64,000 nucleotides of DNA from contig NZ_CP087263.1 in assembly GCF_020923435.1 (NCBI RefSeq), forward strand, positions 124,001 through 188,000, written 5' to 3'. The stretch is from Brevibacillus humidisoli. GTDB lineage: Bacteria > Bacillota > Bacilli > Brevibacillales > Brevibacillaceae. Both the position numbers and the translations under genes were made by a program. Position 1 is the stretch's first letter, and every line of letters starts with the position of its first letter. Below, one piece after another: positions 44,394-60,945 of this stretch. Below the pieces are notes generated by a model. It was not told the DNA's origin, ran no database searches, and was given only the letters and a program-made list of their open reading frames with translations.

Positions 44394-44513
44394 AAAGCCC
44401 CTTTAAAAAATCAGTCTTAGGAAAATAATTACTAGTCTACCACAATTCAAGCAAAAAAACGTGGAAAGCGCAATCGACAACCCGGCGTGGTGCTTTTCTC
44501 AGATTTAGTTGAA

Positions 44514-44584
44514 TTGTCAGTCCCTTTATGCTAGTATAGCATAGTAGTTTCCTAATTGGAAACACTGTTCATATATAGTGAACA
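44514..44584. promoter_or_regulatory. Importer promoter region with three palindromes
   Basis: ATGCTA-GTA-TAGCAT (44528-44542), GTTTCC-TAATT-GGAAAC (44547-44563) and TGTTCA-TATATAG-TGAACA (44566-44584) are perfect inverted repeats in a row. TTGTCA at 44514 and TATAGC at 44535 may be -35/-10 boxes. The second and third palindromes have the size of IclR sites and would cover the transcription start. Which one IclR binds is inference. Confidence 0.6.
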
Positions 44585-44616
44585 ACATTTGAGAACAAGA
44601 GGGGTTGATTGTCGTG

Positions 44617-45729: not shown

Positions 45730-45737
45730 GTGTCATC

Positions 45738-46835
45738 TTGAGCAACATGATCGACGTGGAACTGCGCAACATCGAAAAAAGGTTTCAGAACAATGTCGTG
45801 GTAAAGAACTTTAATCTGCAGGTCGAGCAAGGAGAGTTCGTCTCCTTCCTCGGCCCCTCCGGCTGCGGCAAGACGACCACATTAAACATGATTGCCGGGT
45901 TTCTGGAGCCGGATGGAGGGGATCTGCTGATCAAGGGAAAGCGGATGAACGGCGTTCCTCCCTATAAGCGAGAGTTAGGTATGGTGTTTCAGACCTATTC
46001 GCTGTTCCCGCACATGACAGTGGCGGAAAATGTGGGGTATGGTTTGAAGCTGCGCAAAGTGGGCAAGGCGGAGATTGCGGAACGGGTAGAGCGGGTGCTC
46101 AAACTGGTGAAATTACCGCAGGTCGCTGATCGTTATCCCAAGCAGCTTTCCGGCGGACAGCGGCAGCGGATTGCCATCGCACGGGCGCTGGTCATTGAAC
46201 CGTCGCTGCTGCTGCTCGATGAGCCGCTCAGCAACCTGGATGCGAAACTGCGTGAAGAATTGCGTGACGAATTAAAGCGGCTCCATCAGGAAATCGGCGT
46301 AACCACGATCTTTGTTACCCATGATCAGGAGGAAGCACTCTCCTTGTCCGACCGCATTGTCGTGCTGAACGATGGCCATGTCGAACAAATCGGTACGCCC
46401 GCCGAGATCTACAACCATCCAGCTTCCGAATTCGTCCACACCTTTATCGGCAAAACAAACAAGCTGACCGGAAAGGTGACGGAGGTCGGGCAGGATCGGT
46501 TTACTGTGTTGACGGACAGTGGATTGGTTATCGAGACAGCGGCTCAAAGGCAATCGTTCGATGTAGGACAGGAGGTTCACGTGTTTATCCGTCCGGAAAA
46601 AATCAGATTGTTCCCAGCTGAGGAAATGGCGGCAAACGGTGGTGTTGGACAGCTTGTCATGACATCGTTCCTGGGGGCTTTTACCGAGTGTGAGGTGCGG
46701 ATTGGCGAGCAATTGCTCTCGGTAAAAGTGCAGATGATGGAGCAGGATATCGATCTGAGGCAGGGGCAGACAGTAGGCTGCAGCTGGAATCGTGAGGATG
46801 TTCTGCTGATGCCGACCGAGAGGGATGCGAGATGA
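45738..46835 (+). CDS. ABC importer ATP-binding subunit (PotA type)
   Basis: 365 residues from TTG 45738 (ATG 45747 possible). Walker A GPSGCGKTTT, Q-loop FQTYSLFPHMTV, signature LSGGQRQRIAIARAL, Walker B LLLLDEPLSNLD, H-loop FVTHDQEEAL, and a C-terminal TOBE domain (HVFIRPEKIRLFPAE). Membrane-associated ATPase of the polyamine/iron-type importer encoded by its neighbours. Stop overlaps the first permease start. Confidence 0.94.
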   Translation: MSNMIDVELRNIEKRFQNNVVVKNFNLQVEQGEFVSFLGPSGCGKTTTLNMIAGFLEPDGGDLLIKGKRMNGVPPYKRELGMVFQTYSLFPHMTVAENVGYGLKLRKVGKAEIAERVERVLKLVKLPQVADRYPKQLSGGQRQRIAIARALVIEPSLLLLDEPLSNLDAKLREELRDELKRLHQEIGVTTIFVTHDQEEALSLSDRIVVLNDGHVEQIGTPAEIYNHPASEFVHTFIGKTNKLTGKVTEVGQDRFTVLTDSGLVIETAAQRQSFDVGQEVHVFIRPEKIRLFPAEEMAANGGVGQLVMTSFLGAFTECEVRIGEQLLSVKVQMMEQDIDLRQGQTVGCSWNREDVLLMPTERDAR

Positions 46836-47674
46836 CGAGGCGCCTGTCTATCCTGCTTTTAACAGCCCCCAGCATGATCGTTCTGCTGGGCGTGTTTCTC
46901 ATTCCCATGTTGATGATGTTCTTGCTCAGCTTACAAGACGAGACCGAGCAGTTCAGTCTGCAGAATTACCTGTTGCTGGTCCAAGATCCATACTACTTGG
47001 AACTTCTGGGCCGCACCATTCGGGTCAGTCTTTGGACAGTGCTGTGCACATTGGTGCTCGGCTTTCCCGTCGCCATGTTTATGGCCGGAGCATCAGGACG
47101 TATGCGGGGCATCGTGGCCATGCTTATTCTGGCACCTCATCTCATTAGCGTGGTGATCCGCAACTTCGGTTGGGTGGTGATCCTCGGAGAGAAAGGCTGG
47201 ATCAACGAGACGCTGCTCTCGCTGGGTGTGATCGATCAGCCGCTCCGCTTGCTGTACAACGAGCTAGGCGTGGTGATCGGCTTGACCGATGCCTTTATCG
47301 CTTACATGGTGCTGGCGATTGCCACTAGTCTGTACGCGATCGACACCTCCCTGTACAAAGCGTCTGCGATCTTGGGAGCATCCCACATCCGCACGTTCTT
47401 TACCGTTACGCTGCCTCTCAGCCTGCCCGGAGTGGTGGCGGGGATTACACTGGTATTCAGCTTGTCGATGAGTGCATTCGTCACGCCAGCCCTGATGGGG
47501 GGCACATCGGTCAAGGTGATCCCGGTGAGCGCGTATGAACAAATCATGACGACACTCAATTGGCCGTTGGGCGCTGCGCTCGCCTTCATGCTGTTGGGGA
47601 GCAGCATTCTGCTCGTCACGCTGTTTGCACGGCTGGTGGAGACGAAACGGTATAAAGAGGTGTTCTCGGCATGA
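46832..47674 (+). CDS. ABC importer permease, PotB type
   Basis: 280 residues, six helices, start ATG 46832 in a four-base overlap with the ATPase stop. Carries the EAA-type loop in YKASAILGASHIRTFFTVTL-like sequence and an early periplasmic segment as in PotB. Forms a heterodimer with the next gene product. Overlap with the next start (ATGA) again shows coupling. Confidence 0.92.
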   Translation: MTRRLSILLLTAPSMIVLLGVFLIPMLMMFLLSLQDETEQFSLQNYLLLVQDPYYLELLGRTIRVSLWTVLCTLVLGFPVAMFMAGASGRMRGIVAMLILAPHLISVVIRNFGWVVILGEKGWINETLLSLGVIDQPLRLLYNELGVVIGLTDAFIAYMVLAIATSLYAIDTSLYKASAILGASHIRTFFTVTLPLSLPGVVAGITLVFSLSMSAFVTPALMGGTSVKVIPVSAYEQIMTTLNWPLGAALAFMLLGSSILLVTLFARLVETKRYKEVFSA

Positions 47675-48471
47675 AAAAGATCAATTGGCTTGGAGTTCTT
47701 ACGATTGTCGTCCTGATACTCGTCAACCTGCCGTTTCTGATCATTATCCCCAGTTCGTTTACAGCTGCCGGCTACCTCGCCTTTCCGCCGGACGGGTTCT
47801 CTTGGCAGTGGTATGCCAAGATATTTGACCGGCCTGAGTTTATCGATTCATTTTTGTTCAGCTTGCAGTTGGCCGCCGTTACGGCGGTACTGTCCACATT
47901 GATCGGAACGTTGGCGGCATTCGCCCTGTCCAAATACACATTTCGCGGAAGCCGTGTGTTGAACGCCTTGATGCTGTCTCCGCTTACCGTACCTACACTG
48001 ATTATCGGGATCGCTGCGTTGATGTTTTTTACCCGCATCGGGTTAGCGGGGACGTTTACTGGTCTGCTGCTTGCCCATATCCTGATCTCGATCCCGTACG
48101 TCGTGCGGCTCGTGCTGACCGGTCTCAGCACGTTCGACTACACATTGGAGAAAGCCGGATACATGCTTGGAGCGAGACCTCTGCGCGTCTTTTGGGATGT
48201 TACCCTTCCGCTGATCCGTCCAGCGATCGTCTCGGGAATGATTTTTTCGTTCCTGACGTCCTTTGACAACGTGACCGTATCGCTGTTCCTGGTTGCACCT
48301 GGCACGACAACCCTGCCGCTGACCATTTTCAGCTACATGCAGGAGACACTTGATCCTTTGGTGGCTTCGGTCTCCACCGTCGTGATCCTGTTGAGTCTGG
48401 TGTTCATCGTGCTGCTGGAAAAAGTATACGGCTTGGAGCGGTTGTTCGGGCTTAACTCCCAATCACATTAA
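47671..48471 (+). CDS. ABC importer permease, PotC type
   Basis: 266 residues, six helices, ATG 47671 overlapping the previous stop. EAA loop EKAGYMLGARPLRVFWDVTL and LIRPAIVSGMIFSFLTSFDN are typical. Partner of the PotB-type permease. The M20 hydrolase gene begins 18 bases later. Confidence 0.93.
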   Translation: MKKINWLGVLTIVVLILVNLPFLIIIPSSFTAAGYLAFPPDGFSWQWYAKIFDRPEFIDSFLFSLQLAAVTAVLSTLIGTLAAFALSKYTFRGSRVLNALMLSPLTVPTLIIGIAALMFFTRIGLAGTFTGLLLAHILISIPYVVRLVLTGLSTFDYTLEKAGYMLGARPLRVFWDVTLPLIRPAIVSGMIFSFLTSFDNVTVSLFLVAPGTTTLPLTIFSYMQETLDPLVASVSTVVILLSLVFIVLLEKVYGLERLFGLNSQSH

Positions 48472-48489
48472 TTGGAGATGGAGAAGACC

Positions 48490-49626
48490 ATGTCGGTTCA
48501 AACCAATATGCAAGAGAAGATGCACCAATTTTTACAGTTGCTTGAACAAAGCGTTAACGTAGATTCTCCCTCCAGGGACAAACGACAAGGCGATCAGATG
48601 GCGGAGTGGTATGCACGACAGTTTGTACAGTTGACGGATGGCAGGGTAGAGCGAATTGCCAATCCGACCTATGGAGACCAGCTTCGCTGTACGGTCGGCA
48701 GTGGTGACAAGCAGATCCTTTTGATCGGACATTACGATACGGTCTGGCCGCTGGGGGAATCAGCACGACGCCCCTTTCGTGTCGAGGATGGGAAAGCATA
48801 CGGCCCTGGCGTATACGATATGAAAGCAGGGGTGCTGCAGGCGATGTATGCCTTGCACCTGCTGCTGTTAGCGGATCGGCTGCCGATGGACAAAAAAGTG
48901 GTCCTGCTGCTCAACAGTGACGAAGAGATTGGCAGCCCGTCATCACGTTCGCTGATTGAGCAGGAGGCTCGCGGCTCGGCAGCCGTCTTTGTACTGGAAC
49001 CACCGGCGGAGCCGGGTGGAGCGCTAAAAACATGGCGCAAGGGAAGTGCGCATTACCGGTTGAGAGTGCAGGGAATCTCAGCCCATGCCGGTGTCGATCA
49101 CGGCAAAGGTGTCTCCGCGATTGAGGAACTGGCCGGACAAATCAAATATCTGCACTCGCTGACCGATTATGAGATCGGGACAACGGTAAATGTCGGACTG
49201 ATCAAAGGTGGGATTGGCGCCAATGTGGTCGCCGACCAGGCGGAAGCGGAGATTGATGTCAGGATGAAGACGACAGAAGAAGCTTCTCGTCTGGAAGCAT
49301 TGATGGCAAAGCTGCAGCCTACATTGGCCGGTACGAAACTTACTGTGAGCGGTGGTATCCGCCGCCCCCCGATGCAGCGGACCGAGCAGATTGCGGGTCT
49401 CTATCTGTTGGCCAAATCGATTGCCGCCGATCAGTTGGGCTTCGAATTGGCGGAATCGGGCACCGGTGGCGTCAGCGACGGCAATTTTGCCGCAGCTTGT
49501 GGTGCACCGACGCTGGATGGATTGGGCGCCAGAGGTGGATATGCCCACTCGCCCAATGAGTTTATTTATCTGGATGAGGTACCCAAGCGGACTGCTCTGC
49601 TGGCCGGATTGGTGGAACAGTGCTGA
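48490..49626 (+). CDS. M20-family metallopeptidase (carboxypeptidase G2-like)
   Basis: 378 residues from ATG 48490, with GGAGATGGAGAAG upstream; the frame extends to a TTG at 48472. Zinc ligands and catalytic residues: His81 in GHYDTVW, Asp110 in YGPGVYDMKAG, the Glu pair 145-146 in NSDEEIGSPSS and the C-terminal GGYAHSPNEF histidine. A dimerisation domain sits at about 190-290 (ISAHAGVDHGKGVSAIEELA). The family removes C-terminal glutamate or hydrolyses N-acyl amino acids. Being the last gene of the importer operon and lacking a signal peptide, it should act in the cytoplasm on the imported compound. Confidence 0.9.
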   Translation: MSVQTNMQEKMHQFLQLLEQSVNVDSPSRDKRQGDQMAEWYARQFVQLTDGRVERIANPTYGDQLRCTVGSGDKQILLIGHYDTVWPLGESARRPFRVEDGKAYGPGVYDMKAGVLQAMYALHLLLLADRLPMDKKVVLLLNSDEEIGSPSSRSLIEQEARGSAAVFVLEPPAEPGGALKTWRKGSAHYRLRVQGISAHAGVDHGKGVSAIEELAGQIKYLHSLTDYEIGTTVNVGLIKGGIGANVVADQAEAEIDVRMKTTEEASRLEALMAKLQPTLAGTKLTVSGGIRRPPMQRTEQIAGLYLLAKSIAADQLGFELAESGTGGVSDGNFAAACGAPTLDGLGARGGYAHSPNEFIYLDEVPKRTALLAGLVEQC

Positions 49627-49642
49627 ATGGAAACGGGATCAT

Positions 49643-51082
49643 TTAGGATCGAATCGGCAGTGCGATGTCTACCGTCGTTCCTTTGTTTCGTTGGCTGGTG
49701 ATCTGGATTTGCCCGCCGTGATCCTTCATGATTTTATTGCTGATCATCAAGCCAAGTCCGGTCCCGGTATCTTTGGTCGTATAAAACGGTTCTCCCAACT
49801 TGGGAATCAGCTCAGAGGGAATACCGCAGCCGTTGTCGGCAAAGCGGATTAAGATCTGGTCGTCTCGTTTGCTGGCCTGGATGACGATCTTGCCTCCGTG
49901 GATGACCGCTTCCATTGCGTTTTTCAAAATGTTGATAAAAACCTGTTTCAACTGATTTTCTTCACAATCGACCAGCAGCGGAGTCGTATCAAACTGGGTG
50001 ATGATATCGATGCTTTGCAGATTGGCTTCCGATCGTAACAGAGTGACCACATTACTCAGGATATCCCGGACGTCCCTTTGCTTCATCTGAAGGCTTTGCG
50101 GCTTTGCCAGGATCAGCATTTCACTCACAATCAGATTGATTCGTTCCAGTTCTGACAGCATGATGTCGGTAAATGTTTTGTGCTCGGGCAGCAGCGGCTG
50201 CAGATACTGGACAAACCCTTTGAGTGATGTCAGCGGATTGCGGATTTCATGGGCGATCCCGGCGGCCAGTTGGCCGATCACGGAGAGTTTTTCCGTTTTA
50301 CGGAGAAACTCTTCGTTTTGTTTTCGTTCCGTTACATTTCGTTCTACGACCAGGATGTTTTCCACTTCCTGCCGCTCGTTGAGGATCGGGACGGCTCGGG
50401 CTTCCAGATAGACCCATGAGCCGTTTTTATGCTGGGCCCTGTACTCCACCTGAACAGTCTTTTTTTCTACTGCCAACGTTTGATAGGTAGAGGTGACACG
50501 GGCGAGATCGTCAGGGTGAATTCTGCTTGTCACGTCGGCAGACATGTACTCTTCTTGGCTTAACCCGGAGTGAAGTTGAATAGAGGGAGAGATGAACTTT
50601 TGCTTTAGTTGGAGGTCGTAGATCCCGATGATATCGTTGGTCGCTTCGATCAGCAGACGGTACTGTGCTACGTTTTCCCGGAGTTCTTCGATTGTTTTTG
50701 TTTCGGCGGTGGTATCCTTCGATATGGTGCAGATGCCGACGATTGTTCCTGCTTTGTCCCGAAGCGGGGAGCAGGAGAGACTGACAGGAAATAAACTGCC
50801 GTCCTTTCGCCTAGCTGTTGTTTTGTAGCCAGATACCCGCTCACCGGAACGGATCCGCTGCCATAGCGCTTCGTATTCTTTAATGGCATCGCCCGGGATG
50901 AAGCAGAACGGCTCGTTCATCGCCTCTTCCTCACTCCAGCCGTATGTGGCTGTATAAGCGGTGTTCGCCATGATCATTTGTCCTTCCAGATCGAGGACGT
51001 AGAGTGCATCAGCTGCGTCGTGGAAAAATGAGTGAACAATATCGTCACTGTCCGGCATCAGCCGTAGAGATAGATTTCTCAT
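49643..51082 (-). CDS. PAS-domain sensor histidine kinase, soluble
   Basis: 479 residues from ATG 51082 (GGGAAGG upstream). No membrane helix. Two PAS domains, each with its PAC-like end (ALYVLDLEGQMIMANTAYT; SRIHPDDLARVTSTYQTLAVEKK), then HisKA with GIAHEIRNPLTSLKGFVQYL and a full HATPase domain (NILKNAMEAV, FADNGCGIP, GTGLGLMIS). This is the architecture of Bacillales sporulation or energy-sensing kinases such as KinA/KinE. No response regulator is adjacent, which fits a phosphorelay feeder. It diverges from the fusion-protein locus, and ends beside the M20 gene. Confidence 0.92.
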   Translation of the reverse strand: MRNLSLRLMPDSDDIVHSFFHDAADALYVLDLEGQMIMANTAYTATYGWSEEEAMNEPFCFIPGDAIKEYEALWQRIRSGERVSGYKTTARRKDGSLFPVSLSCSPLRDKAGTIVGICTISKDTTAETKTIEELRENVAQYRLLIEATNDIIGIYDLQLKQKFISPSIQLHSGLSQEEYMSADVTSRIHPDDLARVTSTYQTLAVEKKTVQVEYRAQHKNGSWVYLEARAVPILNERQEVENILVVERNVTERKQNEEFLRKTEKLSVIGQLAAGIAHEIRNPLTSLKGFVQYLQPLLPEHKTFTDIMLSELERINLIVSEMLILAKPQSLQMKQRDVRDILSNVVTLLRSEANLQSIDIITQFDTTPLLVDCEENQLKQVFINILKNAMEAVIHGGKIVIQASKRDDQILIRFADNGCGIPSELIPKLGEPFYTTKDTGTGLGLMISNKIMKDHGGQIQITSQRNKGTTVDIALPIRS

Positions 51083-51273
51083 TCTTTCCCATACCTTCCC
51101 TATCAAGATTAAGGGGCACCCGTTTCTCTACATGATAGTATTCCATCCAGATCTGCCAAACCCTTCTTATTTGTGGTTCCTGATGGAATATAAGGAGGAT
51201 ATATGCAGTGTTTGTCGAAAAGTGGAAAAAGAAGAGGTTTTTTATCTCCGGTTTCAGGGGAGGTGGGTCAGGG

Positions 51274-53607
51274 ATGGTCTGGGAAATGACAGAGGCTGAA
51301 GAAATTTGGCGACCGGTCGTCATGAACTTGACAAGGGAGGAGGACCGAAACAAATTCTTGTCCATCCGTTCTTCCAAAAAGGTCTGGTACACACATGACC
51401 AGATCCATGCACTGTTGCGCGATCTGATCAAGGCACGCGCCAGCGGGAGAGTAGTGGATGAAGACGAGATGCAGCAGGAAATCGGCAGAGTGCTAGATGG
51501 TTTGGATCCAAGTGAGTACGGCAGGTGGATCTATTATCCATGGTCCGGAAGATTGGTTCACATGCTGCCTGAACGTGAATTCCAAGAGCTTCGTCTGGAT
51601 CGCAATCGTCACAAACTGACCCACCGGGAGCAAGCGAAGTGTGCAGCGCTCACCATTGGCATCGTCGGTTTGTCAGTAGGAAATGCTGTCGCTCTCACCC
51701 TTGCCATGGAAGGCATGTTTGGTCACCTGAAGCTGGCCGACTTTGACACATTGGACCTCTCCAACATGAATCGAATTCGCGCGGGGATCCATGAGATCGG
51801 ACTGGCCAAAACCGTTTTGGCTGCACGGCAGATTTATGAGTTGAATCCTTATGCACAGATAACATTGTTTCATGAAGGGATCACGGAACAAAATGCGGAT
51901 CACTTTTTGACGTCTGAGCCGAGAGTGAATGTCCTGATCGACGAGTGTGACTCCATCGAACTGAAGTACCTGCTGCGGGAGAGGGCACGCGCGCTTGGGA
52001 TCCCGGTGATCATGGAGACGAGTGACCGTGGGATGCTTGATATCGAACGGTTTGACCTGGAGCCGAACAGGCCGCTGTTCCATGGTTTAGGTAGGGCGGA
52101 TGCCAGCTCTGTGGGCAGGACCGAGGCTGTGTTGAATATCACCGGGATCGATACGATCTCCACCCGGGCCGCTGTATCCATGCTGGAGATCGGACAGACG
52201 ATCGCGAACTGGCCGCAGCTAGCCTCGGATGTGATGCTGGGTGGGGCAGCAGTCACGGCAGCCGTTCGCTGCCTCGCCTTGGGGCAGCCGCTCTCATCAG
52301 GCAGACGATACGTTGATTTGCAAGACATACTGGATGGAGAGCCGGAGGGAAAAAAGGATATGCCGCCCACACCGCCTCACGATTCCCGCTCTGTGGAGGT
52401 TTTATCTGCTGTCAGTGAAGCTGCAGCCGCGCTGTCTGCTCCCGCTTCAGGCGAACGGGACCGCCTCTCAACGGATGCGGATGCCAGCGGGGAGGGGGAT
52501 GCGGCTGTACCCGAATTGATCCGGTTCGTGGTGGAGCATGCGATTCTCGCCCCCTCGATGGGAAATAGACAGCCATGGCGCTTTTCCTATTCGGATGGGC
52601 TGCTCTGGGTGGTTCTGGTGCCGGAGAGAGCGGACAGTCTTCTCGATCCAAGCCGTCGTGCGAGCTGCCTGGCTCTGGGGGCGGCGATTGAGAACATCGC
52701 CATTGCCGCAGCCTATCGCAATCATGCCGTCTTGGTGAAGCCATTTCCACTGCCAGGCAATCCGTTGGCTGCTGCAGCGCTTCGGCTGCTGCCGGCAGAT
52801 CCATCCTCTCTGGCTGAGCAAGCAGCCTTGTTCGATCTGTTGAGACTGCGGTCGACCAATCGTTCCAGTGCAGAGCGTAGACCGCTGACGACAGATCAAC
52901 GACAGCAGTTCTTACGGGTCCCTCTCTCTGAACACGTCAGCCTGCGGATGGTGACAGAAGATGAGGACATCGGTAAAGCGGCTGAAATTGTCGCAGCCGG
53001 AACCCGTCTGGCGCTGCTCAATCCGCTGCTTCACCAGGAGATCATCACAATGCTGCGTTGGTCACCCAAACAGGCGGATCAGACCAGAGATGGGATTGAC
53101 ACCCGAACCTTGCAGCTGCGTGGCGCGGAAAAGGCCGTCTTGCAATTGCTGGCGCGTCCTGATGTTGCGGCGGAGCTTCGTGAGCTAGGACTGGGACAGG
53201 CGATTGTGGCCAGTGTCAAAAACCAGGTGGCGTCGACAGCTGCAATCGGACTCGTCACAGTGGAGAACAACTCTTTGGAGACATGGCTGGAAACAGGCCG
53301 CTGCTTTCAAAGGATCTGGCTTGCAGCGGTCAAAATGGGGATAAGTGTCCAGCCGATCGCGTCCTGGATCTACCTATTCGGACGGCTTGATCATCATATA
53401 GAAAGCATCTTTACTTCTCAAGAGAGTACGCTGATTGGGGAATTGCACAGTAGACTAAAAGCTCTCTACCAACTGGGATCTGCATCCGAACCGGCGGTGT
53501 TGTTTCGTCTATTTTACGGGAATGCGCCAACCGTGAAGTCGCAGCGATTGTCTATAGACCAGGTGTTTTGCAGCGGATTTCCGCCAGATGGAGGGGAAGA
53601 GCGATGA
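51274..53607 (+). CDS. ThiF/E1-like and nitroreductase fusion protein (Rv1355c-like)
   Basis: 777 residues from ATG 51274, seven bases after GGAGGTGG. N-terminal region of about 120 residues of unknown type, then an E1/MoeB/ThiF adenylating domain: nucleotide loop LTIGIVGLSVGNAVALTLAM at about 127-146, KLADFDTLDLSNMNRIRA at about 152-170, and an IDECDSIELKYLL stretch. No CxxC zinc pairs are seen. After an Ala/Ser/Asp-rich linker a nitroreductase-like FMN domain begins near residue 410 (EHAILAPSMGNRQPWRFSYS) and runs to the end. The same fusion occurs in mycobacterial Rv1355c, of unknown function. Adenylation plus flavin redox implies modification of a small carboxylate or peptide. The next gene overlaps its stop. 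Confidence 0.85.
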   Translation: MVWEMTEAEEIWRPVVMNLTREEDRNKFLSIRSSKKVWYTHDQIHALLRDLIKARASGRVVDEDEMQQEIGRVLDGLDPSEYGRWIYYPWSGRLVHMLPEREFQELRLDRNRHKLTHREQAKCAALTIGIVGLSVGNAVALTLAMEGMFGHLKLADFDTLDLSNMNRIRAGIHEIGLAKTVLAARQIYELNPYAQITLFHEGITEQNADHFLTSEPRVNVLIDECDSIELKYLLRERARALGIPVIMETSDRGMLDIERFDLEPNRPLFHGLGRADASSVGRTEAVLNITGIDTISTRAAVSMLEIGQTIANWPQLASDVMLGGAAVTAAVRCLALGQPLSSGRRYVDLQDILDGEPEGKKDMPPTPPHDSRSVEVLSAVSEAAAALSAPASGERDRLSTDADASGEGDAAVPELIRFVVEHAILAPSMGNRQPWRFSYSDGLLWVVLVPERADSLLDPSRRASCLALGAAIENIAIAAAYRNHAVLVKPFPLPGNPLAAAALRLLPADPSSLAEQAALFDLLRLRSTNRSSAERRPLTTDQRQQFLRVPLSEHVSLRMVTEDEDIGKAAEIVAAGTRLALLNPLLHQEIITMLRWSPKQADQTRDGIDTRTLQLRGAEKAVLQLLARPDVAAELRELGLGQAIVASVKNQVASTAAIGLVTVENNSLETWLETGRCFQRIWLAAVKMGISVQPIASWIYLFGRLDHHIESIFTSQESTLIGELHSRLKALYQLGSASEPAVLFRLFYGNAPTVKSQRLSIDQVFCSGFPPDGGEER

Positions 53608-54260
53608 TTGGGCGCATTGAAAGGATCCAAACAGCGGCACAGCTCGATCAACTGTATCAATTCAGACACCAGGTATTTGTAGGGGAGGAAGGGCACTTGC
53701 CGCCTTCTGCTGACGGACGGATAACGGACCGGTTTGACGCCTACCCAACTACTTACAACTTTGCGGCTTTTGTTGATGATGTGATCGTAGCCGGACTGCG
53801 GATGAACCTCCCTTCCGAATGGGGCACACCTGCAGATGAATATTTTGATTTTGCCGCTTATCTGCCAGACCCGCTGAGCTGCTGTGCCGGCGGCAGCATG
53901 CTCTGCATTGCCAGACGGTACAGGCGGTCAAGAGCGTTGTTTACGGGGCTCCTCGGCCTGTTTTACTACTGGACCATCTCATACGGACTGACCCATGTGT
54001 ACGCCGTTGCCAATCCCGAACGGCAATCATTCTTTGTCAAAAGCGGTTTCCGCTGTCTAACCCCAGCCTTCTTTCATCAGCAGAAGCAGCTTGACTGCTT
54101 GCCCGTGGCGCTTTCGATGAAGGAGCTGCCAGAGCCTTATCGAACGTTTGTAGACGGTCTCATCGCGACTCATGGTTTGCATCAGGATCTTTCGATTGAG
54201 TTTGAATTACTGGGAAAAGGGCGGTATCGCAAAGATAGTCAGGCCATCCAAAATGGATGA
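53604..54260 (+). CDS. FeeM/LuxI-fold N-acyltransferase-like protein
   Basis: 218 residues from ATG 53604 (GGAGGGG upstream), overlapping the previous stop by four bases. N-terminal pattern LDQLYQFRHQVFVGEEGHLP and DRFDAYPTTYNFAAFVDDVI, GLRMNLPSE follow the acyl-homoserine-lactone synthase / N-acyl amino acid synthase (FeeM) fold: R(x)xVF..E, D.fD and the later substrate-shielding strand. In that group the enzyme takes an acyl chain from acyl carrier protein and places it on an amino acid or S-adenosylmethionine. Sequence identity to named enzymes cannot be judged here. It probably acylates the product of the fusion enzyme. Confidence 0.75.
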   Translation: MIGRIERIQTAAQLDQLYQFRHQVFVGEEGHLPPSADGRITDRFDAYPTTYNFAAFVDDVIVAGLRMNLPSEWGTPADEYFDFAAYLPDPLSCCAGGSMLCIARRYRRSRALFTGLLGLFYYWTISYGLTHVYAVANPERQSFFVKSGFRCLTPAFFHQQKQLDCLPVALSMKELPEPYRTFVDGLIATHGLHQDLSIEFELLGKGRYRKDSQAIQNG

Positions 54261-54278
54261 GAGGGGAGATATCCTTAT

Positions 54279-55112
54279 ATGGAATGCCGTATTTCAGACA
54301 TTACCCTTCACTATGAAGTGCACGGGTCAGGCAAGCCGGTTGTCATGCTTCATGGATTCTCATTGGACCATCGCGTGATGACAGGCTGTCTGGAACCGAT
54401 CTTCGCCGATCGGCCGGGGTGGAAACGGATTTATCTGGACCTGCCGGGTATGGGAAGGACCCAAGCGGCTGATTGGATTGAAAGTTCGAACGACATGTTG
54501 GCAATTGTGCTGAAAGCGATTGATCAGCTAATCCCAGAGGAACGATTTCTGGTAATAGGGGAGTCGTATGGAGGGTATCTGGCGAGAGGTATCGTTTCGC
54601 AGCGGATGGAGATGGTTGATGGTATCGCGCTCATCTGTCCGATGATCGTGGCGGAGCGTGAGATGAGAGAACTGCCGCCTGCCGGTATGGTTTTTGTGCA
54701 GGATACGAATCTGCTCGCGGGATTAGATCAACGTGAGGCAGCAGAGTTTACTTCCGTAGCCGTGGTTCAGGATGAGTACAACTGGCAGCGCTTCCGGAAT
54801 GAGATTCTTGCGGGATCACTGTTGGCGGATGCTGCCTTTCTTGAGCGGCTGCGAAAACAGTACGCTTTCTCGTTTAACCCTGACCAGCTTCCGGTACCTT
54901 TCCGCAAACCAGCACTATTCCTCATGGGGCGCCAGGATGCCTCGACAGGTTATCGAGACGCGTGGAAGATTCTTGAACAGTATCCCAGGGCCAGCTATGC
55001 CGTGCTCGACCGGGCCGGACATAACCTGCAGAGCGAACAGAGGCGCTTGTTTGAGGTGATGGTTAGCGAGTGGCTGGACAGAGTGGAGGAAGCGGCAGCA
55101 CAACAGCCCTGA
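54279..55112 (+). CDS. Alpha/beta hydrolase
   Basis: 277 residues, ATG 54279 with GAGAGGGGAG upstream, 18 bases after the acyltransferase stop. Oxyanion region VVMLHGFSLDHRVM, the nucleophile elbow FLVIGESYGGYLAR (Ser within GESYGG), acid in MGRQDASTGYRD and the catalytic histidine in LDRAGHNLQSEQ. A cap domain lies between. No signal peptide. As third gene of the locus it may act as thioesterase, releasing or trimming the acylated product, or as immunity/turnover enzyme. Confidence 0.9.
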   Translation: MECRISDITLHYEVHGSGKPVVMLHGFSLDHRVMTGCLEPIFADRPGWKRIYLDLPGMGRTQAADWIESSNDMLAIVLKAIDQLIPEERFLVIGESYGGYLARGIVSQRMEMVDGIALICPMIVAEREMRELPPAGMVFVQDTNLLAGLDQREAAEFTSVAVVQDEYNWQRFRNEILAGSLLADAAFLERLRKQYAFSFNPDQLPVPFRKPALFLMGRQDASTGYRDAWKILEQYPRASYAVLDRAGHNLQSEQRRLFEVMVSEWLDRVEEAAAQQP

Positions 55113-55219
55113 TCATTTGGATGAGACTAGAACCAGAGCCCAGTCCACTTGAGCACTGCGTGTTTTTCCAACAACCCTCACGGCCGGCCTCCTTCCCTTT
55201 GGCAACCTTCAGTGATACA

Positions 55220-56236
55220 ATGGAACATAATGAGAACGTACGTTCCGATCTGGGGGTGCTCAAGCTGGCCAAAAAAGTGTTTGAGGAAATAACCGCAAAA
55301 CAGACGATGAACCGCGTAAAGGAACCGCGGATGCCTTTTGATTGGTCGATTAATCCGTACCGCGGGTGTACGCATGGCTGCAGTTTTTGCTACGCTCGCA
55401 ACACTCACTCGTTTTTAGGGATGAATGCAGATGATTCGTTTCAAAATCACATTTTTCTAAAGAGGAATGCTGCGGAGGCACTGGAGAATCAGTTGGCCAA
55501 GCTGGCTCGCAAGCACGGGGGCGATCTGCGGCAGTTAGCGCAAGAGGTTGGGATGGTTACGATCGGGACGGCAACCGACCCCTACCAGCAGGTAGAAGGA
55601 AAGGCCAAGCTGACCAGAGAATGCCTGAAGGTGTTGGCCAGGTATCAGATACCAACGTCGATCACGACCCGCTCGCCGCTGATTCTGCGAGATCTGGACA
55701 TCTTGCAGGAGATTCCACTCACTTCGATCAACATCAGTATCAATACGCTTGACACTGAACTGTACCGCCGCTTGGAGCCAGCGACCAGTTTCCCGTTTAA
55801 GCGGCTGGAAACGGTTGAGCAGCTTGTGTCACATGATCTGCCGGCGGGAATCTTCCTCGCTCCGATCCTGCCCTATCTGACGGACGGAGCTTACGATCTG
55901 GAAGAACTGATCGCGGCAGCCAAGCGGCATCGTGCAGCTTTTGTGACGCCGTCTGTGCTGCGACTGGTTCCCGAGGTGAAAGCGTGGTACTTTTCTGTAC
56001 TGAAGCAGCATCATCCGAACCTGTTGCCCGCGTATCAGGAACTATATCGCAGTACGTATCCGCCTCGCGAGTACACCGCACCGCTCATGGAAAGGGTGTA
56101 TGCCCTGCTTGGTCACTATGAGCTGTCTCCGGTTGTGCCGACCAAGCCGAACCGACAGCCAGTGGAATCCGCAGCCAGCTCTCCCATTGACGAATGCCAT
56201 GGACAAAGAGTGGAGCAGCTTTCCTTTTTGTTTTAA
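55220..56236 (+). CDS. Radical SAM protein of the SPL/Rv2578c type
   Basis: 338 residues if ATG 55220 is used; the open frame reaches 55070 inside the hydrolase gene and no strong ribosome site supports any start. The radical SAM cluster motif is RGCTHGCSFCYAR (CxxxCxxC), followed by KRNAAEALENQLAK, GTATDPYQQVE, ITTRSPLILRDLD and SINTLDTELYRRLEP. This is the branch that includes spore photoproduct-lyase-like and Rv2578c proteins. The true reaction is unknown. It follows the hydrolase by about 107 bases, so it may or may not be in the same transcript. Confidence 0.88.
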   Translation: MEHNENVRSDLGVLKLAKKVFEEITAKQTMNRVKEPRMPFDWSINPYRGCTHGCSFCYARNTHSFLGMNADDSFQNHIFLKRNAAEALENQLAKLARKHGGDLRQLAQEVGMVTIGTATDPYQQVEGKAKLTRECLKVLARYQIPTSITTRSPLILRDLDILQEIPLTSINISINTLDTELYRRLEPATSFPFKRLETVEQLVSHDLPAGIFLAPILPYLTDGAYDLEELIAAAKRHRAAFVTPSVLRLVPEVKAWYFSVLKQHHPNLLPAYQELYRSTYPPREYTAPLMERVYALLGHYELSPVVPTKPNRQPVESAASSPIDECHGQRVEQLSFLF

Positions 56237-56310
56237 CCATGTGCTTTCGTTCTGTCTCGTTCTAGATGATTCGATTGACGCTATTCACAGACGCAGCGTG
56301 TCGATAACCG

Positions 56311-56352
56311 GACTCTCCCATCTATTTTGTTTGGCGGGGAGTCTTTTTTTGT
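56311..56352 (+). terminator. Terminator after the radical SAM gene
   Basis: GACTC-TCCC (56311-56319) pairs with GGGGAGTC (56336-56343), followed by a run of seven T. The stretch 56353-56508 carries the promoter region of the SLH gene. Confidence 0.65.
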
Positions 56353-56508
56353 TATGGGAATAATGGAACTTCGCAGCAAGGATATAAGTCGAAAAGTCCT
56401 ATTTCCTAAAAAATAAAGTCGGATACACTTCTTTTATATGAAAAATTTAGAATTATGGTAAACTCCCAAACGTAAAGGCATCTCGATGAGGAAAGGGGCT
56501 CGACACCT

Positions 56509-58038
56509 ATGAAGATCCAAAAAATGCTGTTTGCATTGCTGCTCGTTTTTTCTGTTATGAGCGGGAGTGCGGCCGCTGAAAACAGCGCCACTATGATGGA
56601 GGACGGCCGTGTACAGATTACGTTGGAATTCGCCGACGTGAACGAAGCAAAGTGGGCTTTGCAGCATATAGCCGACATGCAGTCGAAAAAAGTGCTGCAG
56701 GGATTTCCAGACGGTACATTTCGACCCAACCAACCGATCAGTCGGGTGGAAGCTGTCGTGACTGCCGTTCGTCTGATGGGCTTAGAGGAAGAAGCGCAGT
56801 CGGTCTCCTCTGCTACACCACTGCATTTTAAAGATGCGGAACAGATCGCCAACAAGTACCCGTGGGCAACAGGATATGTTGTGATTGCTTTGGAAAACGG
56901 ACTGTTTGATTTCTCCGAAGACAAGATACAGCCGGACAAGCCAGCTTCTCGTGTCTGGGTATCCGTGCTGCTGGTCCGTGCTTTAGGTTTACAGGATGAT
57001 GCGCTTGGCGAGATGACGACGGTTCCTGCTTTTAAAGATGCCAAAGAAATTCCGGCAGGTGCTGTCGGATATGTAAATGTCGCCGTAGAGAAGGGATTGG
57101 TAAGTGGCTATCCCGATGGCACGTTTAAACCAAACAAACATGTAACACGTGCAGAGATGGCTGCTTTTCTCGACCGTACCGATGATCAGCTGCCCGGCGA
57201 ATCGGACCCATCCAATGAAGATGGGACAAAAGTAGTGCTGCCCGAGCTTCCGGCTATAGAGGATCACCTCAATGGCGATGATATCCGTGAGTTTAAGCTG
57301 GAGCTGGAATCGAGCGCAGACGGGAAACTGGAGATTGCATATGTCAGGAAGGCAGACAAAACAGAAGCAAAAATTGAGCAGAAAGCGAACAGTAGAGAAG
57401 AGAAACAAAGCGGAGACGAGGCCGTAAGCGCCGTTGAACAGCTTCTTGAAGATTTTGCTCTGCACCCGGATATGGCTCAAGAAGAAGTAGCGGGAAGAGT
57501 ACTGGACGTGCTAAACGTCGATCACTTCACAACGTTAAAACTTGAGCTTGAATTCGCCAATGGTACAGAGGTAGAGATAGAAGATCAAGGAGATGATCAA
57601 GAGGAGGTAGAGGTTCCCGAGGCTCCAGCAGGGATTCGGGAGTTTATATTGGAAGTAGAGTCAGCGGGAGATAAAAAACTGGAAGTAAAGTACAAGAGAG
57701 ACGAGGACAAAACGGAAGCAAAATATGAGAGCGAAACGAACAGCGGTGAGGAAAAGGTAACGGGTGAAGCAGCTGTTAGTAAGGTAGAGGAACTGCTACA
57801 AACACTCGATTTGGGGCCCGATATGGGGCGTGAGGAGCTCTTGGAAGAAGTTGAATCCGCTCTGGGGCTCTCGGAGATAGAGGAATTGAAGATTAAGGTT
57901 ATCTTCGCAAATGGCCAAAAAGTAGAGGTAGAACTGGAAAAAGAGAAGGACGATAAACACGACGACGATGACGATCAGGATGACGACGAAGAGAATGATG
58001 AGGACGACGATGATGATAAAGACGATGATGAGGATTGA
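56509..58038 (+). CDS. S-layer-homology protein with two YusW-like domains and an acidic tail
   Basis: 509 residues from ATG 56509 with AGGGG upstream. Sec signal peptide of about 24 residues ending SGSAAAEN. Three SLH repeats (about 55-225): VLQGFPDGTFRPNQPISR, FSEDKIQPDKPASR, VSGYPDGTFKPNKHVTRAEM, which anchor the protein to pyruvylated wall polymer. Two tandem copies of about 105 residues follow, each starting IREF(K/I)LE and ending in FANG-x-(K/T)EVE, which match the YusW-like domain. The end is almost only Asp and Glu (last 30 residues), a likely cation-binding tail. Extracellular, wall-bound. Role may be metal or calcium capture. Confidence 0.88.
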   Translation: MKIQKMLFALLLVFSVMSGSAAAENSATMMEDGRVQITLEFADVNEAKWALQHIADMQSKKVLQGFPDGTFRPNQPISRVEAVVTAVRLMGLEEEAQSVSSATPLHFKDAEQIANKYPWATGYVVIALENGLFDFSEDKIQPDKPASRVWVSVLLVRALGLQDDALGEMTTVPAFKDAKEIPAGAVGYVNVAVEKGLVSGYPDGTFKPNKHVTRAEMAAFLDRTDDQLPGESDPSNEDGTKVVLPELPAIEDHLNGDDIREFKLELESSADGKLEIAYVRKADKTEAKIEQKANSREEKQSGDEAVSAVEQLLEDFALHPDMAQEEVAGRVLDVLNVDHFTTLKLELEFANGTEVEIEDQGDDQEEVEVPEAPAGIREFILEVESAGDKKLEVKYKRDEDKTEAKYESETNSGEEKVTGEAAVSKVEELLQTLDLGPDMGREELLEEVESALGLSEIEELKIKVIFANGQKVEVELEKEKDDKHDDDDDQDDDEENDEDDDDDKDDDED

Positions 58039-58053
58039 GCAATAAGCAAACCG

Positions 58054-58089
58054 AGGGAGATCAACTCTTTGTGTTGATCTCCCTTTTTG
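58054..58089 (+). terminator. Strong terminator after the SLH gene
   Basis: AGGGAGATCAAC (58054-58065) / GTTGATCTCCCT (58073-58084), perfect 12-base stem, seven-base loop, then TTTTT. Its right arm overlaps the 3' end of the converging GNAT gene. Confidence 0.85.
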
Positions 58090-58513
58090 TACGCTCGACC
58101 CATTTCTCCATGAAGATCAGCTCGTCACTCTGGAAACCAAGCCTCTCGTAAAACCCCTGCACCTGGGCATTGTTTGGCTCGATTAACAGGTTTACTTTTT
58201 CGCAGCCGATGGCTTGAAATCTGCTTTCCAGCTCTTTCATCATGGCGTAGCCGACGCCCTTTCTCTGCTCATCCGAGTCGACAGCCAGATGGTACACCCA
58301 GCCCCGCCGTCCATCGTATGCGCCGATTACGGCACCGATGATCTTATTGCCTTCAACCGCGACCAGGAACAGTTCCGGATCTCGTTGCAGCTTCTTTTGG
58401 ATTTGTTCGTAGCTGTCCGATCGGGATATTTCCAGCTCTGCTCTACACCACAGCCGGATCACAGGTTCATAATCACTCATCGCAAATGATCGGATCGCAA
58501 TAGACATATCCAT
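58061..58513 (-). CDS. GNAT-family N-acetyltransferase
   Basis: 150 residues from ATG 58513. Acetyl-CoA loop DSDEQRKGVGYAMMKELE (QRKGVG), preceding LFLVAVEGNKIIGAVIGAYD and closing LLIEPNNAQVQGFYERLGFQ, resembling RimI/YpeA-type single-domain acetyltransferases. It starts 13 bases after the OsmC gene stop, so they are one transcript. Substrate unknown. Confidence 0.9.
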   Translation of the reverse strand: MDMSIAIRSFAMSDYEPVIRLWCRAELEISRSDSYEQIQKKLQRDPELFLVAVEGNKIIGAVIGAYDGRRGWVYHLAVDSDEQRKGVGYAMMKELESRFQAIGCEKVNLLIEPNNAQVQGFYERLGFQSDELIFMEKWVERTKREINTKS

Positions 58514-58526
58514 ACTCCTCAGCCGT

Positions 58527-58919
58527 TCATACGAGATTGTCGCTTAGTTCATAGGTTTCCGTAATCTGGATGCTGTCCTTTACAGATTGGACCATCGGGC
58601 AGTTTTTTCTGGTGACGGCGAGTGCTTTTTCCACCTTCTCAGCGTCCATATTGGTTCCTTTAATGAGAAAATGAAGGTGGATTTTTTCCACGCGGTTTGC
58701 TTCTTGCTCATTTCGTTCCACGTGCGCTGTAATCTGGATATCTGCGGCTGGGGTCCGCATTTTGTCCAGAACTTTGCGAAGCACCCCACCGCTGCAGACG
58801 GCAATGGAAGAGACGAGCAACTGATAAGGGCGAAAGCCATATTGCTCATCCCCTGAGACGTGCAGCTCCCCATATTCGACGTTTGTGACGAATCCTTTTT
58901 CGGTCATCTTGAATTCCAT
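58527..58919 (-). CDS. OsmC-family protein
   Basis: 130 residues from ATG 58919. OsmC/Ohr fold with YGFRPYQLLVSSIAVCSGGV, KMRTPAADIQITAHVERNE and the late VTRKNCPMVQSVKD where the redox cysteine sits. One Cys is in each expected area (SSIAVCSGG and KNCPM), so thiol peroxidase activity on organic peroxides or a related role is possible. Upstream gene of a two-gene unit with the GNAT protein. Confidence 0.88.
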   Translation of the reverse strand: MEFKMTEKGFVTNVEYGELHVSGDEQYGFRPYQLLVSSIAVCSGGVLRKVLDKMRTPAADIQITAHVERNEQEANRVEKIHLHFLIKGTNMDAEKVEKALAVTRKNCPMVQSVKDSIQITETYELSDNLV

Positions 58920-59053
58920 ACCGATCACTCTTCCCTGTTCCTACTTTGCTCACCATTATACTAGAAAACGGCTGAGACATCATGGTCTAAAGCTACGATA
59001 AGCTAACTTTCATAGGAAGACGGATCATCTGATGCTCCGACAGACGACTGTAG

Positions 59054-59395
59054 CTAGGCTGTTGCTGTCTTATTCGTCCGCCACCCGGCAGCTGCGATCG
59101 CCAACAGCGGGCTTGCGAGGCCGAGAAGAATATAGGTAACGGTGTAGTAGGGGGCTGCTTCACCCCTGATAAACTGTATCACCGTGATGCCTTCCATCGT
59201 ACCGTCTCCGCCACCGGCCACCAGCAGTGCGCCAATCACATAGATCAGGATTCTCTCGCAAACCATCGGAACGGTACTGTTCCAGTTATGATCAATCGGC
59301 TCCCCTGTAAACCACTGATACAGCATAACGGCTCCAGCAAATGTTATGAAATAGCACATGGTAAGCAAGATCCAACCAGATATGGTTTTTCCCAT
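59054..59395 (-). CDS. Small integral membrane protein, unknown
   Basis: 113 residues from ATG 59395, preceded by GGAGGG. Three hydrophobic helices (about 6-27, 48-64, 85-105). Not recognised. The insertion sequence begins 106 bases upstream of its start, so the native promoter may have been displaced; the transposase reading frame even runs into this gene. Confidence 0.7.
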   Translation of the reverse strand: MGKTISGWILLTMCYFITFAGAVMLYQWFTGEPIDHNWNSTVPMVCERILIYVIGALLVAGGGDGTMEGITVIQFIRGEAAPYYTVTYILLGLASPLLAIAAAGWRTNKTATA

Positions 59396-60945
59396 CTCGA
59401 CCCTCCATTCTCCCGTATAGACGCGGTTCGGATTTTATTCGTTTCAAACAAGAGAGTGTTCATCTTGATGTCACACGTATCTGGTACGTGATATGATATA
59501 CAGATTGCAGACAAACTCCCTCGCTGAACGAACAGCAGAGGGCGTTTGTTTAATAATTTGATGAAAATACCGAAGGTGTTTTGATCCTTCACCTTTTGGC
59601 GACCTGATTTCCATAGCCAGGTCGCCATTTTTTTTAAGTTCATGGCAGCGAAAACAAGCATCGCCTGCATCGTGACCTTCTCCAGTCCTCGTAAGGTCGT
59701 CCAACGCATGCCATGCTTTTCCTTCATATCAGCGAATACACGTTCAATCGTTTCTTTCCGTTGGCTATAGATCTGTTTGTTTTCCTCGGTATGCCGGAGG
59801 TGGTCTACCTCTTCGAGGTAATCAGCCCAGATGTGGCGACTCACTCTCTTTGTGTAGTCTTTACTTTCCGTGCATTGTTTCAAAAACGGACAACTTCGGC
59901 AAACTTGAGAATTTGATCGATAGATACGGTACCCATCCTTGTTTGTTGTCTCATATGTTAAGATTTGCTCGTTCGGGCAGATGTAGCAGTCGAAATATTC
60001 ATCATACACATATTCGTACTTTTTAAAAAAACCTTCTTTGGTGCGTGGTCTTGTGTAGGGCATAACGGGGCGAATCTGGTCATCAATCAGTGTTTTACTG
60101 ATGTAAGGCGTCTTGTATCCGGAGTCCACCGCCACAGCCTGAGGTTGTTCGAACGTCTGTCGCACTTGATTCAAAACATCCTCAAAAACCTGACTGTCAT
60201 GCACATTGCCTGGCGTTACCTTTGCGCCAAGCACAAATCCATTTCGATCACATGCCGTATGAAAACTATAGGCAAATACACGTTCCTTTTCCCCCTTTAC
60301 AAACAATCCGCAATCCGGGTCAGTTGTGCTGACCTTCACCTCCTTCTTCGAAGTTTCTGTCTTTTTTTCAAGGGGCTTCTTTCCATGTGCAATACGATCC
60401 TGATTGATTTCTTCGTCCAGTAGCTCTTGATATTTCTTGGCTTGTTCTTCAACGATTTCTTTCACGTATTTATGCTTATTCGCACTGGCTTTTACATGCG
60501 TAGCATCGATGAAAAGCACGTCAGGCTTCACGAATCCATGATGTACCGCCTCTTCCAATATTCGAAGGAAGATCGACTCGAAGAGTTGAGTATTCCGAAA
60601 ACGGCGAACATAGTTCTTGCCTAGGGTCGTGAAATGGGGAATGGGCTGACTGAAGTCATAGCCAATGAACCACCGATAGGCAACATTGGTTTCGATCTCT
60701 TTAATCGTTTGCCGCATGGAACGAATACCAAAAAGATATTGGATGAGAGCAATTTTGACTAAGACTACAGGGTCAACACTGGGTCTGCCGTTGTCATGAC
60801 AGTAGAGGCTTTCCACTAAGTCATAGATGAATGAAAAGTCGATTGCATTTTCGATTTTTCGTACGAGATGATCTTTTGGCACCAACTCATCTAACGAGAA
60901 TGCAGATATCTGATAACGGCCTTCGGCCTGTTGCTTATTAAGCAT
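59344..60945 (-). CDS. IS1182-family transposase
   Basis: 533 residues from ATG 60945 (GGAGGTGG upstream); the frame extends 18 codons further without a site. N-terminal DUF772-type domain (FSLDELVPKDHLVRKIENAI; SVDPVVLVKIALIQYLFGIRS), DDE residues in DVLFIDATHVKASAN, AVAVDSGYKTPYIS and KETIERVFADMKEKHGMRW. A CxxC cluster (QVCRSCPFLKQC) is typical. About 481 codons lie within the element; the frame has no stop before the right end at 59501 and terminates 157 bases outside, at 59344. The catalytic part is intact. Confidence 0.92.
   Translation of the reverse strand: MLNKQQAEGRYQISAFSLDELVPKDHLVRKIENAIDFSFIYDLVESLYCHDNGRPSVDPVVLVKIALIQYLFGIRSMRQTIKEIETNVAYRWFIGYDFSQPIPHFTTLGKNYVRRFRNTQLFESIFLRILEEAVHHGFVKPDVLFIDATHVKASANKHKYVKEIVEEQAKKYQELLDEEINQDRIAHGKKPLEKKTETSKKEVKVSTTDPDCGLFVKGEKERVFAYSFHTACDRNGFVLGAKVTPGNVHDSQVFEDVLNQVRQTFEQPQAVAVDSGYKTPYISKTLIDDQIRPVMPYTRPRTKEGFFKKYEYVYDEYFDCYICPNEQILTYETTNKDGYRIYRSNSQVCRSCPFLKQCTESKDYTKRVSRHIWADYLEEVDHLRHTEENKQIYSQRKETIERVFADMKEKHGMRWTTLRGLEKVTMQAMLVFAAMNLKKMATWLWKSGRQKVKDQNTFGIFIKLLNKRPLLFVQRGSLSAICISYHVPDTCDIKMNTLLFETNKIRTASIRENGGSRWEKPYLVGSCLPCAIS

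Follow-up and report, generated by a model that had tools for sequence, protein, structure and literature searches.

A ThiF-FDO fusion and a FeeM-type acyltransferase beside a PAS kinase in Brevibacillus humidisoli: a probable acyl-oxazolone pathway with a candidate kinase reader

The window analyzed here is a 64,000-nucleotide stretch of Brevibacillus humidisoli DNA (contig NZ_CP087263.1, positions 124,001 to 188,000), taken from a genome of 4.9 Mb in a single contig, and our subject is a group of four genes within it that we call K, S, A, and H. Three of these genes are on the plus strand: S (51274..53607) encodes a fusion of ThiF and FDO domains of the TrzS/OxzB type, A (53604..54260) encodes an N-acyl amino acid synthase of the LuxI-related FeeM family, and H (54279..55112) encodes an alpha/beta hydrolase that we propose as a putative oxazolone ring opener. 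The fourth gene, K (49643..51106, minus strand), encodes a PAS-PAS-HisKA-HATPase_c sensor histidine kinase and is divergent from S, and the K-S intergenic region (51107..51273, 167 bases) contains an inverted pair and a leader open reading frame (ORF). S and A overlap by 4 bases (ATGA), and a gap of 18 bases separates A from H. These coordinates confirm the tight coupling of three genes and the divergent PAS kinase that were noted in a preliminary description of this DNA, and the domains named there (an E1/ThiF-nitroreductase fusion, a FeeM-like acyltransferase, and an alpha/beta hydrolase) all have Pfam matches above the cut-offs. In a second genome of the same genus, G001, the K-S-A-H order is identical, S and A again overlap by ATGA, and the A-H spacing is 4 bases. 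Given that G001 keeps both the order and the close spacing, we conclude that the couplings do not reflect chance.

Judged by its sequence, S is a member of the Rv1355c/TrzS-type family of ThiF-FDO cyclase-desaturases. It scores 695.7 bits against NCBIfam model NF005901, which describes the Rv1355c family and has a cut-off of 476, and the match covers residues 5-764 of 777. In Pfam, the ThiF match (76.5 bits, cut-off 28.1) spans residues 111-249 and the Nitroreductase match (29.2 bits, cut-off 23.5) begins at residue 414, with the ThiF half first and the FDO half second in one chain. S shares 36% identity with a Mycolicibacterium Rv1355c-family protein over 691 columns. A quick ThiF tree pairs the window with G001 (support 100) and places this pair beside three actinobacterial Rv1355c-family proteins with a weak support of 64. 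Residues D226 and R530 of S are conserved without exception in the 14 aligned fusions and are candidates for the counterparts of D217 and R540 in Mycobacterium smegmatis TrzS, with the limit that the aspartate-to-arginine spacing differs and TrzS itself lies outside the alignment.

This family membership changes several points of the preliminary description, in which the locus was called undescribed, the fusion rare, and Rv1355c a protein of no known function. Rv1355c is now TrzS, the cyclase-desaturase of N-acyl-tryptazolone synthesis, as reported in PMC12856293, so that S falls in the family of a known oxazolone-type pathway. According to the same report, M. smegmatis TrzS carries out the ATP-dependent cyclization and then the O2-dependent desaturation of N-acyl-tryptophan, TrzA is the acyltransferase, and the characterized Rv1355c/TrzS members make tryptazolones both in vitro and in vivo (PMC12856293). 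Nor are such fusions rare, for the FDO subcluster that contains Rv1355c is described as holding 14,445 sequences, which are predominantly long predicted fusions (PMC10404671). The NF005901 match and PMC12856293 also led us to drop the idea that S performs an unknown chemistry.

Among proteins of solved structure, TcdA tRNA dehydratases are the closest in sequence to the ThiF half of S, and this similarity would suit a different account, in which S modifies some other target, such as a peptide or (like TcdA) a tRNA, and the N-acylation supplies a lipid or a siderophore-like component. We regard this as very improbable, given that the near-full-length Rv1355c-family score is far above its cut-off whereas the likeness to TcdA extends over approximately 125 residues of fold, and given that the S gene overlaps a gene for a FeeM-type synthase. 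As to where S begins, its reading frame is open from GTG 51208 and stops at 53607. In our judgment ATG 51274 is the likelier start, because it aligns with a methionine of the same-genus homolog and is preceded by GGGGAGG.

The A protein matches the Pfam FeeM model (PF21926) at 60.6 bits against a cut-off of 27, with residues 17-157 of A aligned to positions 2-144 of the 158 in the model. Among solved chains, those closest to it in sequence are RpaI (E=1e-4) and BjaI (E=0.048), two coenzyme A (CoA)-dependent acyl-homoserine lactone synthases. FeeM itself depends on a carrier protein. We considered and rejected the synthesis of an acyl-homoserine lactone by A, since its score against the LuxI profile (Autoind_synth) is 16.5 bits, below the cut-off of 24, and since S would then be without a role. 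A search for a phage origin of A gave no PHROG match. A second FeeM-like match in the same genome (G000:C1:778211) lies in a different region, beside a gene that by eye resembles a lysophospholipid acyltransferase, and was set aside.

Acyl-oxazolones are ring-shaped fatty amino-acid molecules known from mycobacteria and from marine bacteria. Because S scores above the cut-off for the TrzS family and A belongs to the FeeM family, and because their genes overlap by 4 bases in both species, we read S and A as an oxazolone pathway, and we think it highly likely that their joint product is an acyl-oxazolone, closed or ring-opened. As to the substrate and product, we infer that A would acylate an amino acid, probably an aromatic one, with a fatty acyl chain whose donor is probably acyl-CoA. 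Using ATP, the ThiF half of S would activate the carboxylate, upon which the amide oxygen would close an oxazol-5-one ring, and the FDO half would desaturate the bond between C-alpha and C-beta with O2. H would then open the ring to give an N-acyl-dehydroamino acid, or would end the signal, and K would be the best candidate for a reader of the product. The preliminary description had anticipated the activation, redox change, and N-acylation of a small molecule, possibly a signal, and this agrees with the chemistry of OxzAB, TyzACB, and TrzAS as these systems have been described.

H matches the Pfam Abhydrolase_1 model at 56.9 bits (cut-off 25.8), and its residues S96 (in GESYGG), D220, and H248 do not vary among the 11 aligned members and probably form its catalytic triad. 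The likeliest role for H would be the opening of an oxazolone ring, as a maturation step or as an off-switch. For the thioesterase activity suggested in the preliminary description nothing was found in support, and ring opening seems to us the better candidate. Whether H acts in the S-A pathway at all is nearly an even question that leans slightly to the negative, as H exists independently of S and A and may be a bystander.

A ring-opening H also invites the hypothesis that S, A, and H make a secreted N-acyl-dehydroamino acid of the thalassotalic, kyonggic, or stieleriacine kind, which would serve as a surfactant or an antibiotic; the oxazolone would then be only an intermediate that H opens, and K would be unrelated. 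The three activities have indeed been tied to N-acyl-dehydrotyrosines (PMC12479983), and the producer clusters have the same three activities with no oxazolone observed in the work as described in PMC12479983. Moreover, H closely follows A in both species. Against this, the main text of PMC12479983 does not contain the word "hydrolase" and so describes no dedicated ring-opening hydrolase; this hypothesis also leaves unexplained the kinase linkage that we find in two other phyla (see below). We view a secreted N-acyl-dehydroamino acid as distinctly unlikely to be the purpose of the locus, and retain the reading of S and A as an oxazolone pathway with a candidate ring opener and a candidate reader.

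The candidate reader, K, has two PAS stretches followed by HisKA and HATPase_c domains, all of which match Pfam above cut-off. The first PAS stretch follows residues 1-25, leaving no room for a membrane bundle. K scores 214.3 bits against the model of the sporulation kinase KinD (cut-off 775) and is thus similar to, and not a member of, that group. Its His box, AHEIRNPLTSLKGF, resembles that of the kinases found near ThiF genes in a sister genus (see below). A His box of this type presumably marks the kinases of the sporulation phosphorelay, and a link between K and sporulation is possible. Between K and S, an inverted pair, TATTCCAT...ATGGAATA, is located at 51139-51190; G001 keeps it in part, as TATTCCAT...ATGGAA, and it is possibly an operator. 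The ribosome-binding site AAGGAGG upstream of S is strong and is kept in G001. In the window, AAGGAGG-ATAT-ATG starts a leader ORF of 28 codons (51203-51289) in a frame other than that of S, and the stop of this ORF overlaps ATG 51286, which is in frame with S. At the corresponding position G001 (L015 6191-6199) reads ATG-AAT-TGA. The ORF may encode a leader peptide, or it may represent a decayed N-terminus. Leader RNA structure is weak, with fold z-scores of -1.06 and -1.92, and no RNA family reaches the gathering score in window positions 44000-60000. On the other side of K, polyamine-type ABC transporter genes and an M20 peptidase gene (45738-49626) precede it, and the same block stands before K in G001.

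We searched relatives of B. humidisoli for these genes, using 99 genomes (the window's own, G000, included) for S and A and 39 genomes for H and K. S has matches in 8 of the 99 genomes. Two of these are full length, and the other six, all from one sister genus (g7), match in the ThiF half only. A is found in 2 of the 99, which are the same two genomes with the full fusion, namely G000 and G001. S, A, and H of G001 share 58-68% identity with those of the window. The K-S-A-H order is kept in one of the two congeners searched; in the other, G002, there is no match to K, S, A, or H at the thresholds used. Thus, the joint conservation of the three genes, whose absence the preliminary description had named as a refutation, is borne out by G001 and fails in G002, the fusion and A are each confined to 2 of 99 genomes, and H is frequently found apart from both. 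In two samples of 398 Bacillota genomes, only the window's own genome matches NF005901 or the ThiF alignment A2.

In each of the six loci of the sister genus (L016-L021), a kinase gene lies four genes upstream of the ThiF gene and outside its operon, and the one kinase scanned has PAS domains. None of the six has an FDO gene within three genes, so that the ring, if one is made, might stay saturated. Directly before the ThiF-only protein each locus encodes a protein of 283-351 residues, and the two of these that were scanned have no Pfam match. A protein related to it (18% identity in the alignment) follows the S-type fusion in L026, a locus from a record titled only "uncultured bacterium" that we grouped under Bacteroidota. 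A profile comparison of the A alignment with that of the sister-genus protein (A9) gave a probability of 2.4%, and no sequence link is claimed.

Evidence that oxazolone-type enzymes may be connected with kinases comes from outside the genus. We built a profile of the ThiF half from alignment A2 (16 rows) and searched it in samples of two further phyla. It matches 10 genomes in the Bacteroidota sample of 395 and 46 in the Patescibacteria sample of 379; 44 of the 46 Patescibacteria loci were fetched (G928 and G985 were left out), and in L124 and L155 the contig ends 3 and 2 genes downstream, respectively. Neighbors were labeled with profiles built from a few proteins of the same loci, the FDO profile being seeded with S, and genes were called with a simple ORF picker, so the counts can miss genes (as happened with A of G001, which was missed and then recovered). 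A sensor histidine kinase gene lies at most three genes downstream of the ThiF gene on the same strand in all 10 Bacteroidota sample loci and in 37 of the 44 fetched Patescibacteria loci. Kinases also accompany the ThiF gene in 12 of 16 named loci grouped as Bacteroidota and 3 of 4 named Patescibacteria loci, those lacking one being L029, L033, L037 (contig end), L026, and L027. With the named loci included, the chain from ThiF to kinase is on one strand in 21 of 21 cases in Bacteroidota and 37 of 39 in Patescibacteria, and no gap in the chain exceeds 60 bases in 20 of these Bacteroidota cases and 34 of these Patescibacteria cases.

Kinase genes are not so common in these genomes as to make such an arrangement expected. 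Three Patescibacteria genomes of 1.1 Mb have 4, 6, and 14 HATPase_c genes and six Bacteroidota genomes have 21-113, from which the chance of at least one kinase in three places is approximately 1-4% per locus if one gene per 1000 bases is assumed. In a small control of 63 further genes from these stretches, none has a kinase among the next three. The loci are not independent of one another, but the 46 Patescibacteria ThiF proteins of the set still fall into 21 groups at a 45% identity cut. The sensors of the kinases differ by phylum: 7TMR-DISM is present in all 19 Bacteroidota kinases scanned (of 21) and HisKA_7TM in 31 of the 38 Patescibacteria kinases scanned (of 39), whereas the window's kinase has PAS. 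From the 21 ThiF groups and these differing sensors, we infer that the association of ThiF with kinases formed, or was re-formed, on more than one occasion.

The genes found with ThiF in these phyla vary. Within three genes, an acyltransferase-like gene is present in 10 of 10 Bacteroidota sample loci, either before or after ThiF, and an FDO gene in only 4. In Patescibacteria, over the same distance, an FDO gene is present in 33 of 44 loci and a PaaK-like ligase gene in 39; the three ligases scanned are PaaK-like below cut-off. Since an FDO gene is often lacking in the one phylum and no acyltransferase match is seen in the other, the products of these loci need not be that of the window. Five Bacteroidota acyltransferase-like proteins that were scanned have no Pfam match over cut-off, and a profile comparison of the A alignment with theirs (A8) gave a probability of 0.7%, so that here too no sequence link is claimed. 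A structural model of the L022 protein (from 12 sequences, pLDDT 89) has FeeM (2g0b) as its top match in both Foldseek (E=2.5e-8) and VIA-align (Z 16.8, 3.0 A, 175 residues). The near-ties of ElaA and another GNAT protein (both Z 16.0) and of LasI (15.8) suggest that the fold is that of the GNAT/LuxI/FeeM group and not of FeeM alone. In many Bacteroidota loci, a stand-alone receiver-domain gene diverges from ThiF (L022 7120-7584 and equivalents).

A dehydrogenase profile matches in 16 of the 44 Patescibacteria loci. The dehydrogenases in two of the ThiF operons (L038 5172-6242 and L123 3645-4694) are of the Glu/Leu/Phe/Val type, and that of L038 resembles the tryptophan dehydrogenase ScyB at 245 bits, for a cut-off of 600. 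A neighboring dehydrogenase would fit, and does not show, an aromatic amino acid as the building block. In L124, L128, L129, L132, L137, and others, an unlabeled gene of approximately 500-525 codons stands before the ligase gene, replacing the dehydrogenase. Five of the 44 loci have a hydrolase like H: it follows ThiF in L038, L040, L130, and L135, and in L125 (3631-5532) an FDO-alpha/beta hydrolase fusion is encoded within a ThiF-kinase operon. The hydrolases of the window and of L038 are 21% identical, and they appear to share a fold and a place, with orthology unproven. On a Streptomyces plasmid, a gene in L070 (6158-8026) has a GNAT-like N-terminal part and an oxazolone-type ThiF part and is followed by a gene for a beta-ketoacyl-acyl carrier protein synthase. 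We do not rely on a GNAT-ThiF fusion at L070:6158-8023, because the scores are below cut-offs (GNAT 17.8 of 20.7, FeeM 14.3 of 27).

Taking these results together, we consider it probable that the locus is an oxazolone pathway of the TrzAS/OxzAB kind, made up of S and A, with H as a candidate ring opener and K as a candidate reader of the product. Several observations weigh against this proposal. The TrzS residues D217, R540, and Q651 have no certain counterpart in S, and the single-sequence model of A, with its mean pLDDT of 42.6, is too poor to draw on for an acyl-binding pocket. In the other phyla, 6 of the 10 Bacteroidota sample loci are without FDO within three genes, none of the 44 Patescibacteria loci has an acyltransferase-profile match, and a kinase is lacking in 7 of these 44 as well as in the named loci L026 and L027. 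There is likewise no kinase within four genes at 5 actinobacterial plasmid loci (of 13 records); one of these plasmid loci adjoins a GGDEF gene, and in L069, also among the five, an annotated sensor protein and a response regulator are found approximately 5.4 kb further, outside the four-gene range. Tryptazolones are reported to be more abundant inside than outside the cells of the strains tested (PMC12856293); a kinase such as K, with PAS domains and no membrane part, could nonetheless read a product that is mainly intracellular, as the tryptazolones are.

The neighbors H and K raise further doubts. H is found in 15 of the 39 genomes searched, 13 of which have neither A nor the fusion, and in G007 it is beside a radical SAM gene, without S and A. 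K is divergent, lies outside the operon, and is one of a large family of kinases, with matches at E<=1e-100 in 19 of 39 genomes. These findings are what would be expected if only S and A were functionally linked, H and K were ordinary inherited neighbors, and the kinase linkage elsewhere had no relevance to Brevibacillus. We hold this to be unlikely, given that G001 keeps the whole K-S-A-H arrangement with A-H gaps of 4 bases there and 18 bases in the window, and that G002 has no match to any of the four at the thresholds used. Furthermore, the kinase beside S in G001 is 72% identical to K over nearly its full length, and those of other relatives reach 40-45% where almost the whole chain aligns or 49-54% where only the C-terminal two thirds do. 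We keep K within the proposed oxazolone system as its candidate reader, and that the product is sensed by the neighboring kinase is a real though somewhat doubtful possibility.

The physiological role of oxazolones has been called a major unresolved question, and a part in signaling was suggested from their similarity to acyl-homoserine lactones and from neighboring cyclic-di-GMP genes (PMC12856293). The GGDEF gene at the plasmid locus recalls those cyclic-di-GMP genes, which lie beside trzAS (PMC12856293). The kinase linkage in two phyla suggests that the acyl-oxazolone class may be a signal, and it makes the question of what these molecules are for directly testable. As a broader and more doubtful conjecture, ThiF(-FDO) oxazolone-type clusters might be the synthesis half of a widespread signaling class of cyclized N-acyl (or aryl) amino acids, with cognate histidine kinases of the 7TMR-DISM kind in Bacteroidota, the 7TM kind in Patescibacteria, and the cytosolic PAS kind in the organism of the window, and with a ring-opening hydrolase as off-switch. 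In a search of open-licence literature that was not exhaustive, no title or abstract among the matches listed ties the ThiF family to histidine kinases, and the terms "kinase" and "two-component" do not occur in the main text of either PMC12856293 or PMC10404671. Operons in which a kinase directly follows ThiF point to specific candidate receptors in bacteria that can be cultured, Dyadobacter among them. In Patescibacteria, with as few HATPase_c genes as the counts above indicate, a kinase linked to an enzyme that makes a small molecule would be informative.

Pairs in which an autoinducer synthase is encoded with a multi-helix membrane sensor kinase are known in LqsA/LqsS and CqsA/CqsS. The pairing of a synthase with a membrane kinase in the Bacteroidota and Patescibacteria loci is like theirs, with no sequence relation claimed, whereas K of the window, unlike LqsS and CqsS, has no membrane bundle and is divergent. 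FeeM (2g0b) is the closest comparison for A, which matches almost the whole of the family model; unlike FeeM, A is coupled to a cyclase-oxidase. TyzACB (Rv2336-Rv2338c), which makes a C12 tyrazolone, has by description the same three activities as the window (PMC10404671), but its ThiF and FDO are separate proteins whereas S fuses both. OxzAB of Pseudoalteromonas rubra, which makes tyrazolones and phenazolones, resembles the window in having an acyltransferase and a ThiF-FDO fusion, a comparison made by description only (PMC10404671, PMC12856293). TrzAS (Rv1356c-Rv1355c), which makes N-acyl tryptazolones in Mycobacterium and Rhodococcus, is like S-A in having a ThiF-FDO fusion and an N-acyltransferase in an operon. 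The two differ in that the acyltransferase gene is upstream in TrzAS, as described in PMC12856293, whereas the order in the window is S-A, and in that TrzAS adjoins cyclic-di-GMP genes (PMC12856293) whereas the window has the additional hydrolase H and a PAS kinase. The Brevibacillus locus is thus a familiar type of pathway in a new context, and the kinase neighborhood is its new part.

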